Assembly (NCBI GenBank): GCA_034520215.1
Contig: JAXHNR010000001.1
Location: forward strand, 1,416,560 to 1,480,559
Length of the DNA stretch: 64,000 nt
Reading direction: 5' to 3'
Source: Candidatus Krumholzibacteriota bacterium
GTDB taxonomy: Bacteria > Krumholzibacteriota > Krumholzibacteriia > Krumholzibacteriales > WJIX01
Positions 42,112 through 60,747 of this stretch are shown here, one piece after another. The position numbers and the translations under genes are program-made. Numbering within the stretch: the first letter of the stretch is position 1; each line of letters starts with the position of its first letter. Below the pieces are notes generated by a model. It was not told where the DNA came from. It was given only the letters and a program-made list of their open reading frames with translations, and did not search any database.

Positions 42112-42870
42112 TTGAGTGAACCTGTTTTTTTTATTTCTGACACACACCTCAGGTATCACAATACCGGAGAAAAGGAAAAAATAAAAAAAAGAAAACTCTT
42201 CAAATTTTTCAAGGAAATAAGAGGAGCTTCCAGACTCTATCTTGTAGGTGATATCTTTGATTTCTGGTTTGAATATAAAAGCTGCATTCCAAAATTTTAC
42301 ATGGATATTCTATACAATCTCAGAATGCTCCAGGAATCAGGAACTTCAATTTATATAACAGGAGGAAATCATGATTTCTGGCTCGGTTCCTTTATAGAAG
42401 AAGAGATGGGACTCAAGATTCTTCCGCAAATATCCACTCACAAGGTTCAGGGACGAATCATTACAATAACTCACGGAGACACACTGATGCCCGGTGATCA
42501 TAAATACAAATTTTTAAAGAAAATAATCAGAGGACGTCTGGTGATAAAAGTAGCCGGGATAATTCCTCCGGGAATCCTTTATAAATTTGCCGGCTGGTTT
42601 TCATCGACAAGCAAGGATTTTACCGAAGGTAAAACAGAATACTGGGCAAACAGACTCGCCGATACTGCCGAAGATTCCTTCTTTAAATGGGGGAATGATT
42701 CGTTCATTATGGGTCATATACACAAACCGGTGGTAAAATATTTCGGAAACAGAATATTCGTTATTCTGGGTGACTGGGAAAATCACTTTTCCTATTTACG
42801 TCTTGAAAACGGTAAGTTTGCGGCCGGCAATTATAAAGGGGAGGGGAACACGTTAATCGAGAACCGGTGA
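42112..42870 (+). CDS. lpxH: UDP-2,3-diacylglucosamine diphosphatase
   Basis: About 252 residues from a TTG at 42112, which has GGAGG 8 bases before it. An ATG at 42097 and another at 42043 are also in frame but have no SD. Metallophosphatase motifs are complete: ISDTHL, GDIFDFW, GGNHDFW, HGDT and GHIHKP. LpxH removes UMP from UDP-diacylglucosamine in lipid A synthesis, so the organism makes a Gram-negative outer membrane. It converges on the PorV-like gene, whose end overlaps it by 40 bases. Confidence 0.93.
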   Translation: MSEPVFFISDTHLRYHNTGEKEKIKKRKLFKFFKEIRGASRLYLVGDIFDFWFEYKSCIPKFYMDILYNLRMLQESGTSIYITGGNHDFWLGSFIEEEMGLKILPQISTHKVQGRIITITHGDTLMPGDHKYKFLKKIIRGRLVIKVAGIIPPGILYKFAGWFSSTSKDFTEGKTEYWANRLADTAEDSFFKWGNDSFIMGHIHKPVVKYFGNRIFVILGDWENHFSYLRLENGKFAAGNYKGEGNTLIENR

Positions 42871-43754
42871 CTATTGCCCAGGTTGAAATCTATGGGCATG
42901 AACGCGTAGTCAAATCTCAGGCGGTCATAGACAACGCCAAATCCCATCGTCGCGCCTTGAGAATAATACCCGCTCTTATAACCAAACCTTACCGCCAGAG
43001 ATTCCTTGTAGAAATATTCCATTCCCAGAAGAAGTTTCTCATCCGTATCGTTGGAGTAGAGAAAATCCCCGGAAAGAGTAACCTTGCCCTTCATCCACCT
43101 TTCTTCGGCTTCGTACGCCACTCCCAATCGTGTCTGAAATGGCGGATAAAACTTCTCCTCAACAAATTTCGCCTGCGGGCCCAGATTCAAGAGAGAAGCG
43201 GCGAATGTCATCCCTTCTATCCTGCTCCTGTGAATAACCCCTAAATCGACAGCCCATCCCGTCGCGGATTCAAAGTCTATTCTCTGGTAAAGAAGTTTGG
43301 CGGACATTCCAGCCGAGAGATCGGGCAGTATATCCCTGCCATAACCAACTGAAGCGCCCAGGTCGTATGGAGAAAAAGTTCCATCAGGGGCTACTGTGGG
43401 AAAATTGCCCCGTCTTTCGAGGTCCCCATAATAGAGACCCGTGAAATTGAACCCAACAGCGCCTCCAAACATCTCATTGGCAATACTTACCTGTTCGAAA
43501 CGAATACCCATAAGCCATTCTGAATGGGTTACATTCAATTCAACTTTCTCTATACCGGCTAAACCCGCCGGGTTATAGTGCATCCCTGTCACGTCATCGG
43601 CTACTGCTGTGAAGGCTTCACCCATACCGCTGGCTCGGGCGCCGTTACCAAGTCTTAAGAAAAGAAAACCGCTTGTGCCGGGTTCGCCGGCTCTTAGAGT
43701 ATGCGCGGAGAACAGCATTAGTATTACAGTTAGAGCAGCTTTTAACCGGATCAT
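42831..43754 (-). CDS. PorV/PorQ family outer-membrane protein
   Basis: 307 residues with a signal peptide (LTVILMLFSAHTLRAG). The family signature starts near residue 28: FLFLRLGNGARASGMGEAFTA, then DDVTGMHYNPAGLAG. These barrels include PorV, the shuttle that helps type IX cargo reach the attachment complex, and PorQ. A strong GGGAGGG precedes the ATG. The protein is encoded next to an M6-like sorted protein (43878-47204), which makes a role with sorted cargo more plausible, though the rest of a type IX system is not in this window. Confidence 0.88.
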   Translation of the reverse strand: MIRLKAALTVILMLFSAHTLRAGEPGTSGFLFLRLGNGARASGMGEAFTAVADDVTGMHYNPAGLAGIEKVELNVTHSEWLMGIRFEQVSIANEMFGGAVGFNFTGLYYGDLERRGNFPTVAPDGTFSPYDLGASVGYGRDILPDLSAGMSAKLLYQRIDFESATGWAVDLGVIHRSRIEGMTFAASLLNLGPQAKFVEEKFYPPFQTRLGVAYEAEERWMKGKVTLSGDFLYSNDTDEKLLLGMEYFYKESLAVRFGYKSGYYSQGATMGFGVVYDRLRFDYAFMPIDFNLGNSHRFSINVFPSPL

Positions 43755-47385: not shown

Positions 47386-48258
47386 TTATCTATCTCCAGA
47401 AGAAGGGGTTATAATTAATCTCCCCTCATCAGACCTTCTTTCTATCAAACCGGGAACAGGAGCGGGAGAAAAATCGGTATTTCCTGGATCCGACTGATAA
47501 GCCCACCAGAATTCAACCCACTCAAACGCTGTCCTCTCTACATATAATTTTACGTAATGCGCTTCTTCTCCTGTCCTGATAACATAGAGATGGGACTCGA
47601 TAATTTCAGCTCTACCCGAAGGAGACCACCCTTCTGTCGGAGCATAATTTATGAGGTCAAAATTATCCACGTACCCGTAGTCCTGAATACTATCGTTTAC
47701 ATTATCTACCATAAATTTCTGAATACCTTCTGCATCTTCCGCGACCCAGACATTGGTAGTAACAGAATCATAACGTTGAGCAGAATTACTGTTACTTGAA
47801 AAATCAAATCCGCTCGCATCCGGGTTAACTCCAGCTTCATAAAGCCTGATAAACCCCTCGTATCTTGGTGTAGCCGTCACAATATAACTGAATTCACTTT
47901 CGTTGTTTCCTTCATCAAAGGCAATTACTCCGTAGTAAAACTGCTCCCCGTTTATGGGTTCTTCATATTCGTAATTGTACTCGTAAGGATCGGGATTTTC
48001 GTCATCTATAGAGCCTATTCTTATATATTCCCCGTAGAGGGAATCCCCCCGGTATATATCATAACCCGCTATATCACTCTCCGGGTTTGGAGCCCACCAT
48101 ATTATTACATAACCATCCCTGTTATCGGCGTCTATTCCGCGTGGTGGAGAAGGGGGGCAATCCGTTGGAACTTCTACTATTTTCTCCTCTTCATCACAGG
48201 AGAGATTCAAGGCAACTAACAAAAAAATAAATATTGTGATGATATTCCTGATCTTCAT
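47386..48258 (-). CDS. Lipoprotein with fibronectin type III domain
   Basis: 290 residues. Signal peptide ending in lipobox LNLSC. Residues about 35-130 form a fibronectin type III domain (PPSPPRGIDADNRDGYVIIWWAPNPESDIAGYDIYR, the usual WxP and GYxxYR pattern). The rest is beta-rich and unrecognised. AGAGGAG precedes the ATG. It lies upstream of the M6-like gene, 181 bases away, in the same direction. Confidence 0.8.
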   Translation of the reverse strand: MKIRNIITIFIFLLVALNLSCDEEEKIVEVPTDCPPSPPRGIDADNRDGYVIIWWAPNPESDIAGYDIYRGDSLYGEYIRIGSIDDENPDPYEYNYEYEEPINGEQFYYGVIAFDEGNNESEFSYIVTATPRYEGFIRLYEAGVNPDASGFDFSSNSNSAQRYDSVTTNVWVAEDAEGIQKFMVDNVNDSIQDYGYVDNFDLINYAPTEGWSPSGRAEIIESHLYVIRTGEEAHYVKLYVERTAFEWVEFWWAYQSDPGNTDFSPAPVPGLIERRSDEGRLIITPSSGDR

Positions 48259-48623
48259 AATACTCCTCTCATATCACTTATACTCTTACGCAACACATGT
48301 GCCATAAGGATGAAGGAAATAAAAAAAGGGCGAGCCAAAGATTTTATCCGTTCAAATGCCAGTTAAATATGCGGTTAGGGAAGTAAACTAATTGATTGTA
48401 CTGAAATACGAATTGTGCCGCACCTTATTTCAGATCTTAAAGTGTCACTTCAATTAAACACAATCGTCCATTATAAAGGACATAATCAGTTCGATATTCT
48501 TTAAATAACAAATCTGGAAGGTCAGAATGGAATAAATAATGTCCCACAGCCACATGTAAATAACTGCAGGTTATTTCTCAAGAGAAAACATAAAATCTCT
48601 TAATAAGAATAGCTCTTTTTTAA
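48259..48623. other. AT-rich spacer upstream of the FN3 lipoprotein
   Basis: About 365 bases with no gene or clear structure. It must contain the promoter of the FN3 lipoprotein gene. Nothing further was recognised. Confidence 0.4.
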
Positions 48624-48726
48624 GAAAAAATGTCAGAGGCAGGCCAGCAAGCACCGGAGGGGATGTCCATGCTTGCTATTTCAACGAAGGAATCTCGCCA
48701 TTCCATCAAGTAACCATACCTCTGAC
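48624..48726 (-). ncRNA. Probable stand-alone small RNA (about 100 nt), unknown family
   Basis: The transcript predicted from the promoter at 48732-48760 begins at 48726, exactly at an 8-bp closing stem (GUCAGAGG, paired with CCUCUGAC at 48632-48639). Six U follow, ending near 48625, so the closing stem doubles as an intrinsic terminator. Inside are two hairpins: GGAAU/AUUCC with a 6-base loop, and an 8-bp AGCAAGCA/UGCUUGCU stem with a 16-base loop holding CCCCUCC. That is a three-way junction. No ORF with an SD is present. I found no match to SRP, tmRNA, RNase P, 6S or common riboswitches by eye. A pseudo-gene remnant is unlikely because promoter, fold and terminator all agree. Confidence 0.6.
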
Positions 48727-48731
48727 TTATA

Positions 48732-48760
48732 ATAATATTAAGCCGGATTTGCTTTGTCAA
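48732..48760 (-). promoter_or_regulatory. Promoter of the small RNA
   Basis: Minus strand TTGACA (48755-48760) and TATTAT (48732-48737), spacing 17. The predicted start lies 6 bases downstream, at the first base of the RNA closing stem. Confidence 0.7.
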
Positions 48761-48848
48761 ACTATTATTATTTCCCAAAATAGGATTATTACTGGAATTA
48801 GGGGAAAACCCCTACTTTATTAGTTAACAAAAAAATAGCTATGAACAA

Positions 48849-48942
48849 ACCGGCAAGAGAACTGAAATCCATGCGGTGATAAAGAGACCCCACCTTATAA
48901 ATCTATTATTTCATCCCCGCATACATCAGACCTCTTGCCGGT
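48849..48942. other. 94-bp long-hairpin element
   Basis: An 11-bp perfect outer stem (48849-48859 with 48932-48942, ACCGGCAAGAG) encloses a second 6-bp stem (ATGCGG 48871-48876 with CCGCAT 48917-48922) and a further GATGAA/TTTATC-type stem. On the minus strand a U-rich tract follows (UUUGUU, then seven U 13 bases later), which favours that strand. No strong promoter was seen on either strand. It may be an RNA or part of the small RNA neighbourhood. It shows no sequence similarity to the small RNA. Confidence 0.45.
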
Positions 48943-49323
48943 CCTAATTGGAGAAGCAAACCGAGCCGGAATTTTTCAGTTTACTTATCTATTTATTTAT
49001 AAAACGCAATATCTGTTCCATGAATTAAAAATGACTGGCTTTTTCTTTGCAATGTAAGGTGTTGCCAAACAATTTGTTAAAGACGCCCCATTACAACGAT
49101 TAATTAAAGCCCGTATAGCAATACTGAAATGTATAAAAATATTTTATTTCAGAAGTGGAAAACTCAGAACTCCAATTAAGAGTTGAGCTTATAGAATAAA
49201 ATATTTTAGCATAGCAATAAATAAATTCAATGATCCGGTCCTTATACCATTTAAAGCTGGGGAAAGACTTTAGTTAGAGGGGAAAATATAGATTTTCTTA
49301 TAAATAAAAGAGGGAAGAGCCCT
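48943..49323. other. AT-rich spacer after the regulator gene
   Basis: About 380 bases. A short hairpin (AGGG/CCCT) followed by CTTTTATTT lies just after the stop of the TPR-GAF regulator on the minus strand, near 49299-49320, and may be its terminator. Otherwise nothing was seen. Confidence 0.4.
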
Positions 49324-52300: not shown

Positions 52301-52380
52301 GAACTTGTGCGCTGAAAATTCTTCTCGGGATCTTCTTTCCCATATCCATAACTATCATTACCTGAAGTGTCTTCCGACAT
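49324..52380 (-). CDS. TPR-GAF-sigma54 activator (enhancer-binding protein) without receiver domain
   Basis: 1018 residues from the ATG at 52380, which has GGAG at proper distance; an earlier TTG adds four residues without an SD. About 500 residues of tetratricopeptide repeats ([28 protein letters not shown]) come first. A GAF-like domain follows (about 540-680), then a sigma54 AAA+ domain: Walker A GETGTGKG, the sigma54-contact loop GAFTGA, Walker [12 protein letters not shown] Fis-type HTH ends it ([22 protein letters not shown]). It activates sigma54 promoters on an input that TPR and GAF probably sense through a partner or small ligand. It sits 53 bases after a small secreted protein gene. 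Confidence 0.93.
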
Positions 52381-52954: not shown

Positions 52955-54313
52955 TCAATCCCTGTAATCAATGCTGTATTTCTCAAGTTTTTTATACAAA
53001 TTACTCCTCTGCATACCAAGCATACGGGCTGTTTTTGAAATATTGCCCTCATACTTGCGCAATTTTCTCATAAGAAATTCCTTTTCAGTAAATTCCCTGA
53101 ATTCCTGAAAATCATCAATGGAAAAAGGGTTATTCCGCAAATCACTATTACCGTGACCTGCTAGAAAAGATAAATCGCTCTTATTAATCTCTTTATCTTT
53201 TGTTAGTATACACAATCTTTCGATAAGATTCCTGAGTTCTCTAACATTTCCGGGCCAACTGTAACGCTTCATTATTTCAATCGCTGAAGGAGAAATCTTT
53301 TTCGCTGTAATTCCGAGCTCTTCACCTATCTGCTTCAGGAAGAAATCAGACAGAAGAGGAATATCGTCTCTTCTTTTCCTTAATGGCGGCACCTCTATAG
53401 GAACAACGTTCAGTCTGAAAAACAGATCTTTCCTGAATCTTCCCTTTTCAGCTTCCCCAACAAGGTCCTTGTTGGAAGCAGCTATAACTCTCACATCAAC
53501 ATTTATCTGTTCTGCGCCCCCGACTCTTTCAAATACAGATTCCTGTAGAACACGGAGAACTTTTGCCTGAGCCGAAAGGCTCATATCACCAACTTCATCG
53601 AGGAATAATGTTCCTTCATCGGCTAGCTCGAATTTGCCAATCCTTCTCGTTGTAGCCCCGGTAAAAGCCCCCTTTTCATGACCGAAGAGTTCGCTCTCTA
53701 TAAGATCCTCCGGAATAGCGGCGCAGTTAACCTCTACAAAACTTTCAGAACTTCGGTCACTAAGCTCATGAATCTTTCTGGCAACCAGCTCCTTGCCCGT
53801 TCCATTTTCTCCGGTAACCAATACACGGGCGGCAGTCCCGGCAACTCTTTCTATTATACCGAGAACTTCCTTGACACTCTCGTCTTCTCCAACAATTTTT
53901 GTTCTTCCTCCCACACGTTTCTTCAGACTTATATTCTGCCTCGTAAGCTTGGCCTGTTTTATCCCATTTCTTACCGTAAGAAGCACTCTTTCCATATCAA
54001 TGGGCTTCTCGATAAAATCGAAAGCACCGAGTTTTGTGGCTTCCACGGCTGTCTCAACTGTCCCGTGACCTGAAACGATCACAACGGGAAGAGAAGGGTC
54101 TATCCTTTTAACTCGTTCAAGAACTTCAATCCCGTCTATCCCGGGCATTTTTATATCCAGCAGAACTATATCAACTACTTCGTTCTTTACAGTCTCGATC
54201 GCGCTTTTCCCGTCGGAAGCGGTCAGAGTCGCAAATTTTTCGTACGAAAGAAGTTTTACCAGTACGTCCCTTATGCTCTTCTCATCATCTACTATAAGAA
54301 CCTTTTTACTCAT
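52955..54313 (-). CDS. NtrC-family response regulator (receiver-AAA-Fis)
   Basis: 452 residues from the ATG at 54313. An AGGAAAGG lies about 10 bases upstream. An in-frame reading would extend nine residues further without support. The receiver domain is complete, with phospho-acceptor Asp53 (LLDIKMPG), Asp9-Asp10 and Lys (EKP). The AAA+ domain has GENGTGKE, the GAFTGA loop and FLDEVGDM. A Fis-type HTH ends the protein (GNISKTARMLGMQRSNLYKKL). It activates sigma54 promoters when phosphorylated by a histidine kinase, but no kinase gene is in the window. It overlaps the ppx gene end by 8 bases. Confidence 0.95.
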   Translation of the reverse strand: MSKKVLIVDDEKSIRDVLVKLLSYEKFATLTASDGKSAIETVKNEVVDIVLLDIKMPGIDGIEVLERVKRIDPSLPVVIVSGHGTVETAVEATKLGAFDFIEKPIDMERVLLTVRNGIKQAKLTRQNISLKKRVGGRTKIVGEDESVKEVLGIIERVAGTAARVLVTGENGTGKELVARKIHELSDRSSESFVEVNCAAIPEDLIESELFGHEKGAFTGATTRRIGKFELADEGTLFLDEVGDMSLSAQAKVLRVLQESVFERVGGAEQINVDVRVIAASNKDLVGEAEKGRFRKDLFFRLNVVPIEVPPLRKRRDDIPLLSDFFLKQIGEELGITAKKISPSAIEIMKRYSWPGNVRELRNLIERLCILTKDKEINKSDLSFLAGHGNSDLRNNPFSIDDFQEFREFTEKEFLMRKLRKYEGNISKTARMLGMQRSNLYKKLEKYSIDYRD

Positions 54314-55319
54314 TGAACAAAAACCTTTCCTCGAATACACCCCCGGAAATTAATACCCCCCAGCGAAGATCACGAGGCGTAACACTAATTTCATTTACTC
54401 CCAGGTGACTTATGATCGAGTTCAGCAACACAAGCCCCGGAATTAAAAGCCTGGCTCTCTCTAAAGTTACGGGAAGAAAACGATGCATGTCCCGTAATCT
54501 TTTACTCTTGATCCTTCTTGTCATCAGGAACAACTCTTCAGCAATTATACTATCATTTTCAACAACGCAGGGCATTCTCTTTATAAATCTTAGAACAAGA
54601 GCGGAACTTACAGCTGTGCCCCCCGTAGCAAGAATTCTAAAATTTTCTAACCCGGCGGGCAAGGAAGAAAGCCTCGAATCCATATAATCACTGCGGAAGG
54701 TAAAAGAGCTGATTGACTCAAAAAAGTTTCTTCTGAGAAATCGCGCTTCAAGCTGAACTGAAGCATCTCTCTGAAACGAGGCAACTCTGTGAGTACCAAT
54801 TGGAATTTCTATATAATCATCGATCAAACCATCCTTACCCCAGGCAATTTCAGTGCTGGTTCCCCCTATATCTATTAGAAGCCCCTTCTCCCCTCCACCC
54901 AGAACAGAAGAAGCCCCTCTGAATCCAAGAGCAGCTTCACCTGTTTCTGAAAGTATATAGACAGGAGGTGAGACATTTTCCTGAAGATGGGATAGAACTT
55001 CATGGGCATTATCCGCTTTCCTGAAGGCGTTTGTTCCAACTATAACGGGTCTGTCACAACCACTTTCAATAGAAAGATTAACAAATTCTCTTAAATATTC
55101 GGCGGCAACGCTCATCTTATCCGTTGAAATCAATCCTCTATTCTCAACTTCATCCCCCCACCCTATGTATCTCGAATCTTGATAAAGAGGTTTAATTTTT
55201 CTGCCGCCTGTATCCTCTTCTATATCCGCGAGCAAGAGTCTGAAATAGCTGCTCCCCAGATCTATGCAGGCCGATATACCAATTTTATTTCTGGACAAAA
55301 GCTTCCTTTTCTCTTTCAT
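54306..55319 (-). CDS. Ppx/GppA exopolyphosphatase family protein
   Basis: About 337 residues from the ATG at 55319. No SD is visible and the frame stays open upstream for another 17 codons, so the start is uncertain. The actin-like ATPase motifs are present: IDLGSSYFRLLLADI, GTNAFRKADN, SETGEAALGF and LIDIGGTSTEIAWG. Members hydrolyse polyphosphate or the pentaphosphate alarmone pppGpp. Which one applies cannot be read here; the GGTSTE variation in the GGGSTE motif is minor. Its start is 20 bases from the divergent rlmN start, and its stop overlaps the NtrC-type regulator. Confidence 0.88.
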   Translation of the reverse strand: MKEKRKLLSRNKIGISACIDLGSSYFRLLLADIEEDTGGRKIKPLYQDSRYIGWGDEVENRGLISTDKMSVAAEYLREFVNLSIESGCDRPVIVGTNAFRKADNAHEVLSHLQENVSPPVYILSETGEAALGFRGASSVLGGGEKGLLIDIGGTSTEIAWGKDGLIDDYIEIPIGTHRVASFQRDASVQLEARFLRRNFFESISSFTFRSDYMDSRLSSLPAGLENFRILATGGTAVSSALVLRFIKRMPCVVENDSIIAEELFLMTRRIKSKRLRDMHRFLPVTLERARLLIPGLVLLNSIISHLGVNEISVTPRDLRWGVLISGGVFEERFLFNE

Positions 55320-59481: not shown

Positions 59482-60747
59482 TTACTCCTCAATCAGATCA
59501 TCAGATCCGTGAGCCAGAGCTCCGCCTTTTGAAAGTACAAAAGCGCCCACTCCGATAAGAATAGCTAGAAAGACTATAAATTTACCTATTATCCCTATCG
59601 GCATTCTCACAAATGTAAATACCGGCACGACACTCATCAGAGAACTTAATAACCCCGGCAGTTCAAGGATAAAGAGCCCTATCAGTCCCTTAAGGTATAT
59701 CGAATCGCGCGCAACCTGCATCTTGCCGGCAACTATATTTCCAAGGGCAAGGGCGGCCACAAAATAGCAAACAACCAGCAGAGCAAGATAGGATAAAAAC
59801 AGAAGCAGAGAGAGCGGAATCCCTATGATTGTTATTGCAAGAATAATCGCCGCTATAAGAATCACGATCGAGCCGAAAAAGATTATAAGAACACCCACGC
59901 CGAGAGATTTGAGGAAAGAGCCTGACACGTAAGAACTACTCTTCTTCATTCTTTCCGGCATGAAGTAGAAAACTATTAATAAAAGCAGAACTAGAATGGT
60001 AAATTTGGCAATCTTCGCGATAACCCTGAAAATACCTCCGCCGAACGGGAAGAAAGCGACTCCGGGGAAAGAAAATCCATCTCCTCCAACACCCGATCCG
60101 ACCGTGACAGTCTCGCCTCTGACTCTTGCATTTTTGTCTTTCGACAGATTCCCCATAACACAGACAACATCTCCATTAACAACAGCAGAAGGACCAAGGT
60201 CAATATTGCCGACAACACAGACCACGTCACCCCTCACCTTGCCGTCGATTGTAACCCCCCCTACTACTGAGACAACATCGCCCTGAACAAGTTGATAGTC
60301 CTCTATCTTAATTTTGCCGCCGATCCTGACAAAGTCATCTTTTTTCACATCACTGTATTTATCTTCATCCCTGTATGTGAAATCAATAGAATTGGCGCTT
60401 CCATCGTAATTAACATCCAGAGAAATAGAATCAGGAATTGATTCAACTCCGGCCTTGACCATAGCTCTTATCTTATCCTTTGAATCAGAATTCAGGATAA
60501 ATTTGTCCTTCCCGTCGGAATGTATCTTGATGCCGTCATCAGATATGGATATCTTCACGGATTTCTCCGTTTCTTTCCCTTCTTCATCCGCGTCTGTTGA
60601 ATCTGAATGCACTTCAACGGTGTTCAAAGTAAAAGCCGGAATAATCCCGGAAATCTGTTTAACCTCGCCGGAATCAAAATTCATAAAGACCATTACCGCG
60701 ATGGTTAAAATTGCCTTGATAATCGATATGTTAAATAAAGCTGACAT
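59482..60747 (-). CDS. Membrane protein with bactofilin-like (polymer-forming) repeats
   Basis: 421 residues. An N-terminal signal-like segment and a Ser/Asp-rich region come first. About 165-225 has repeats such as GDVVSVVGGVTIDGKVRGDVVCVVGNIDLG, the beta-helix signature of bactofilin or polymer-forming domains. Four or so membrane segments follow (FTILVLLLLIVFYFM to LLVVCYFVAALALG). The role is unknown; it may scaffold the envelope. AGGGGAG precedes the ATG. It overlaps the anti-sigma gene by 17 bases. Confidence 0.75.
   Translation of the reverse strand: MSALFNISIIKAILTIAVMVFMNFDSGEVKQISGIIPAFTLNTVEVHSDSTDADEEGKETEKSVKISISDDGIKIHSDGKDKFILNSDSKDKIRAMVKAGVESIPDSISLDVNYDGSANSIDFTYRDEDKYSDVKKDDFVRIGGKIKIEDYQLVQGDVVSVVGGVTIDGKVRGDVVCVVGNIDLGPSAVVNGDVVCVMGNLSKDKNARVRGETVTVGSGVGGDGFSFPGVAFFPFGGGIFRVIAKIAKFTILVLLLLIVFYFMPERMKKSSSYVSGSFLKSLGVGVLIIFFGSIVILIAAIILAITIIGIPLSLLLFLSYLALLVVCYFVAALALGNIVAGKMQVARDSIYLKGLIGLFILELPGLLSSLMSVVPVFTFVRMPIGIIGKFIVFLAILIGVGAFVLSKGGALAHGSDDLIEE

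Follow-up and report, generated by a model that had tools for sequence, protein, structure and literature searches.

A covarying small RNA with a neighboring small RNA and sigma-54 activator gene in one order of Candidatus Krumholzibacteriota

Here we describe E1, a small RNA encoded in a 64,000-nucleotide stretch of DNA (the window) from a Candidatus Krumholzibacteriota bacterium, and the conserved locus in which it lies. E1 almost certainly exists as a real bacterial small RNA, and on the sequence evidence it is a new RNA family of a known kind, confined as far as we searched to one order of the phylum. Since it adjoins a second small RNA, which we call E2, and the gene of a sigma-54 activator, E1 is probably, together with them, part of a regulatory switch. 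An earlier note, made from the letters of the window, had judged a real RNA likely here and had named compensatory changes in aligned relatives as a check; both the fold and the pattern of substitution now support that judgment.

A structured RNA conserved within one order

On the minus strand (the earlier note gave no strand), the promoter boxes TTGACA (48760-48755) and TATTAT (48737-48732) are separated by a 17-nucleotide spacer and agree with the consensus at 11 of 12 positions. About 6 nucleotides past the -10 box begins the closing stem GUCAGAGG/CCUCUGAC, and its second arm ends at 48632, after which come one A and six U (48630-48625). The consensus-like promoter, the start at the closing stem, and the two inner hairpins of a three-way junction described in the note were thus all borne out. 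Its 8-bp closing stem is present too, as part of a helix that lengthens to about 14 pairs in relatives, and its six U are there in the window and distinct in only part of the relatives. When promoter-like sites in the spacer were scored by consensus matches, shuffled sequences yielded as many; because such matches alone show no enrichment, the case for the promoter rests on position and conservation. TTGAC, followed 15-19 nucleotides later by a -10-like hexamer, keeps this location in almost every one of the 19 relatives described below, with TTGAGC as a variant in genome G006, while in G004 the top-scoring pair chosen by the script differs and TTGACA followed by TATAAT is also present further upstream.

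The predicted folding energy of E1 is -42.3 kcal/mol, compared with -27.4 for shuffles (z = -4.4), and none of 200 shuffles folded as well. A plus-strand RNA at the same site was rejected for its weaker fold (z = -2.7). Of the 25 genomes searched in the order of the window genome, first by DNA search and then with a covariance model, 19 contain E1, with E-values from 1e-16 to 1e-25; within the genus, the whole stretch is matched at about 70% in two genomes. Among the genomes lacking a match, G008 has a scaffold gap, and the contigs of G002, G005 and G007 end before or within the locus. The alignment of the 19 sequences holds 31 consensus pairs, with 96% of cells paired. Two-sided compensatory changes occur in 13 of these pairs and occupy 30 cells where 6.7 were expected, a count reached in none of 500 shuffles; the covariation score is 0.253, as against 0.05-0.12 for control structures slid along the alignment. 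Most of the covariation sits in the closing helix (9 of 14 pairs). The loops behave in the opposite manner, as AUGGCGAGA and CAUCCCC are constant across the 19 genomes save in single sequences, and CAUCCCC is predicted to be unpaired, with a probability of about 1, in all 18 genomes measured. The U-run is clear in the majority of relatives and weak or absent in several, so that termination of E1 may not be uniform. In G016 (L046, about 1600-1680) a partial second copy of the E1 3' half, GGAGCTCCCCCCTCCGGTGCTCGCGTCTTG, follows E1 as a tandem duplication, and G015 (L064) shows the start of a similar partial copy.

A coding role for the same stretch is scarcely credible. The window does contain an open frame of 28 codons beginning at ATGGAATGG, and some relatives have one too; however, in several relatives the candidate frames are disrupted by stop codons, loss of the start or a shift of frame, no frame survives in all, and the substitutions are paired across helices. 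Covariation, invariant loops and the lack of a surviving frame together point to a structured RNA selected for its fold and its loops.

The note had recognized no known family, and neither did the searches: at the gathering threshold, Rfam 15 gave no match for the window or five relatives, its permissive scans returned only sub-threshold eukaryotic families, and no tRNA or tmRNA was found. Outside the order, the covariance search matched only G044 (E = 0.008, 28 bits), which we dismissed as probably chance. When 84,980 species were searched for exact copies of the loops, 16 matches came up. Thirteen are E1 itself, in metagenome-assembled genomes labelled Krumholzibacteriota, UBP1, "bacterium" and, once, Latescibacterota; the remaining three, on Streptantibioticus, Verrucomicrobia and Ignavibacteria contigs, lack the E1 context.

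A second RNA and the sigma-54 locus

The spacer holding E1 (48259-49323) contains no listed open reading frame of at least 60 amino acids, in line with the earlier note, which called it gene-free; besides E1, however, it carries two sigma-54 promoters as well as another structured RNA. The description of E1 as stand-alone probably holds for its transcription and fails for its setting, a conserved locus with that second RNA and a likely activator. E2 lies on the same strand as E1, about 100-250 nucleotides upstream of it, and folds more strongly (z = -5.7 for the core and -5.1 for a longer form). We read it in 21 genomes of the order, plus its 5' part in one more. A stretch of about 45 nucleotides that precedes a 17-nucleotide inverted repeat is conserved at least as well as E1, and its reading as RNA gives a 5' hairpin and then a long closed structure with a U-run. 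The order's second family has an E2 that begins CCGGUAUCGGUUGGCG and holds an invariant GGUGGGGUCUC; in relatives, two-sided changes affect 12 of 31 pairs, a level that none of 500 shuffles reached. By DNA search E2 had no match outside the order.

In most genomes the conserved 5' end of E2 lies about 12 nucleotides past a GG-N10-GC element, the start itself being one that we infer. The element has the consensus TGG(A/T)A(C/T)-N6-TTGC, with weaker -12 elements in genus g14. Further upstream, a palindrome stands about 130 nucleotides from the E2 start (127-130 by the script's count) in most of the 21 loci. Since the motif used to score the palindrome was derived from the same sequences, its fixed position, and not its score, is the independent evidence; it looks like an activator site. 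Several relatives carry a second short palindrome, with an AT-rich box of the AACAAATTGTT type after it, between the main palindrome and the E2 promoter.

Table 1. Features of the E1-E2 locus, in window coordinates.
Feature	Position	Strand	Evidence or remark
Sigma-70-type promoter of E1, TTGACA-17-TATTAT	48732..48760	-	position kept in nearly all of 19 relatives
E1, a three-way-junction RNA of about 102 nt	48624..48726	-	fold z -4.4; covarying alignment of 19 genomes
E1 closing helix, 5' arm	48717..48726	-	two-sided changes in 9/14 helix pairs
E1 closing helix, 3' arm	48632..48641	-	two-sided changes in 9/14 helix pairs
E1 hairpin A, GGA-AUGGCGAGA-UUCC	48689..48704	-	loop near-invariant throughout the order
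E1 hairpin B	48647..48676	-	apical loop CAUCCCC (48665-48659), near-invariant, predicted unpaired
E1 U6 tail, terminator-like	48625..48630	-	sequence; indistinct in some relatives
E2, an RNA of about 166 nt in which a 5' hairpin precedes a long closing helix, with GGUGGGGUCUCU motif and U-run	48829..48994	-	fold z; covariation in relatives
Sigma-54 promoter of E2, TGGAACAGATATTGC (GG-N10-GC)	49006..49020	-	conserved throughout the order
Proposed activator-binding palindrome, GTGTAAAG-N3-CTTTATAC as consensus of the order	49131..49149	-	fixed distance to E2 start
TPR / sigma-54 activator gene, Fis-type helix-turn-helix	49324..52392	-	Pfam; matched in 24/25 genomes of the order
Sigma-54 promoter TGGCACATGTGTTGC of downstream lipoprotein gene	48290..48304	-	textbook match; also in nearly all relatives read
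Putative lipoprotein gene in conserved locus	47386..48258	-	nearly all relatives read encode a similar protein downstream of a sigma-54 promoter

The activator gene adjoins the RNA spacer on its upstream side, and its product matches Pfam TPR, sigma-54 interaction and Fis-type helix-turn-helix domains. Its listed start is TTG, and an ATG at 52380 suits the upstream GGAG; in G023 the gene was unmatched at the cut-off used. On the other side of the spacer, the putative lipoprotein matched no Pfam family. In the loci of the order E1 always lies between these two genes and shares their strand, which would suit a cis element, either a leader for the lipoprotein mRNA or the 3' terminal part of the mRNA for the activator. 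We regard this as very improbable, however, because E1 is preceded, a few nucleotides ahead of the closing stem, by a conserved promoter of its own, and about 320 nucleotides and a separate sigma-54 promoter intervene between E1 and the lipoprotein gene.

The rpoN gene was found in the genome of the window. Exact copies of TGGCAC-N5-TTGC occur at 7 sites in that genome, compared with 1 in the reversed control, and 6 of the 7 precede a gene start. An NtrC-type response regulator gene (52955-54340, minus strand) lies directly upstream of the TPR activator, which puts two sigma-54 activator genes in a row. Among the 6 sites that precede a gene start is a sigma-54 consensus promoter (G000:C1:1255588-1255602) ahead of a gene that is PilM-like as judged from its sequence and not by family search, which suggests sigma-54 control of pili in the lineage.

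Proposed function of E1

The best explanation of the locus as a whole, which we favor by a little over even, is that E1 works in trans and without Hfq as an antisense RNA, in a sigma-54 locus with an induced E2; for the antisense mechanism taken by itself, the chances appear evenly balanced. Under this proposal E1 would be made by the housekeeping polymerase, and the neighboring activator, acting via the palindrome, would induce E2 and might also induce the lipoprotein gene. E1 would offer its unpaired CAUCCCC and the adjacent UCC to G-rich ribosome-binding sites, where pairing would block translation, and E2 would be the induced partner, adding to or relieving that control. We propose action in trans in view of the separate promoter of E1 and the absence of any gene that relies on this RNA in cis. 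That it would work without Hfq, and not as a CsrA decoy, follows from the finding of neither protein in the genome of the window: there was no PF17209 match for Hfq in a genome that is 97% complete (a diverged Hfq could escape), nor a PF02599 match for CsrA, with positive controls in both cases. CAUCCCC, near-invariant and predicted to be unpaired, has the character of the exposed, conserved UCCC(C) seeds of antisense small RNAs, and RNAIII and RsaE of Staphylococcus aureus use their UCCC seeds to bind Shine-Dalgarno sequences rich in G (PMC9217828).

Several observations weigh against this proposal. Conserved E1 targets did not emerge, since neither the lipoprotein leader nor the activator start region shows consistent complementarity (a few loci with a mis-chosen start were left out of the activator comparison), and the gene starts of the window gave no conserved target signal. 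The genome G019 keeps E2 and has no E1 between E2 and the lipoprotein gene (L117:5043-5400), which makes the two RNAs separable. The invariance of both E1 loops, moreover, is equally compatible with protein binding. By energy only, and within the window only, the best single target candidates are the genes at 42831-43754 (ACGGGAGGGAAAATG, -18.2 kcal/mol) and 59485-60747 (-18.4). The first of these, on the minus strand, has weak UPF0164/FadL-like outer-membrane transport similarity; ACGGGAGGGAAAATG is its ribosome-binding site, and it is a candidate by complementarity only.

Protein binding is accordingly the chief rival, one that we hold to be possible and clearly less probable than the antisense proposal. 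E1 would here be a decoy, a scaffold or part of a ribonucleoprotein, with a protein recognizing AUGGCGAGA and CAUCCCC. Both loops and the short GGA/UCC stems barely vary in the 19 genomes whereas the outer helices vary freely, and the want of a conserved mRNA target fits as well; but CsrA, the best-known regulator sequestered by small RNAs, is among the proteins not found, and an unpaired loop rich in C is what one would typically expect of an antisense seed.

A direct pairing of the two RNAs, in which sigma-54-induced E2 titrates E1 through GGUGGGG on CCCCUCC, seems rather unlikely to us. The two motifs hardly vary and have opposite characters, their duplex has an energy of -13.4 kcal/mol, and the binding of RsaE UCCCC by the GGGG of RsaI (PMC9217828) suggests the same for E2 and E1. 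However, shuffled motifs equal the duplex energy in 9-15% of trials, which is not significant; the 5' arm of the E2 closing helix often fits E1 better, except in the family of the window; the E1 loop resembles the 3' arm of that helix in the larger family (CAUCUCUCCGG), though not in the family of the window; GGUGGGG is partly paired within E2; and G019 has the E2 motif with no E1 at the locus. Co-folding of E1 and E2 gave a value near zero, from models that cannot represent loop-loop contacts. The fuller version, a two-RNA switch in one spacer in which a constant, C-rich antisense E1 represses many mRNAs at their ribosome-binding sites until firing of the adjacent TPR activator induces E2, through sigma-54, to titrate it, all without Hfq, we consider somewhat more doubtful still.

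The locus adds two covariation-supported RNA families, neither of them in Rfam. Their ties to a sigma-54 activator, a candidate activator site and an envelope gene make a concrete and testable circuit in a lineage with no detectable Hfq or CsrA. A full-text literature search found no paper on Candidatus Krumholzibacteriota that also mentions small RNA, and a two-RNA switch, if true, would be a post-transcriptional arm of a sigma-54 regulon in a phylum without small RNAs in that literature.

Comparison with known systems

The Qrr small RNAs of Vibrio are sigma-54-dependent and encoded near LuxO, the gene of a sigma-54 activator, and they depend on Hfq. The present locus resembles them in having a probably sigma-54-dependent small RNA near a sigma-54 activator gene; it differs in the failure to find Hfq in the genome of the window and in the lack of an Rfam match.

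In its seed, E1 comes closest to the RsaE/RoxS-type small RNAs and RNAIII of Firmicutes; RsaE has a G-rich partner RNA in RsaI, and E2 is possibly one for E1. Unlike these RNAs, E1 has no Rfam match, carries a single seed in a three-way junction, belongs to a different phylum and has only candidate targets. Rfam revealed no sequence relationship of E1 or E2 to RsaE or to GlmY.

In arrangement, the closest system is GlmY, with GlmZ, and the QseE/QseF regulators of enterobacteria. The glmY gene, a sigma-54 small RNA gene, adjoins the activator operon qseEGF and is activated through upstream sites (PMC6075780). E2 shares the sigma-54 promoter and the upstream palindrome, lies beside a likely activator, and has a lipoprotein gene and a second small RNA in its locus. 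The differences are that an Rfam match is again lacking, that the activator here belongs to the TPR proteins rather than to the response regulators, and that E1 and E2 lie in one spacer, with the sigma-70 and sigma-54 promoters belonging to different RNAs.
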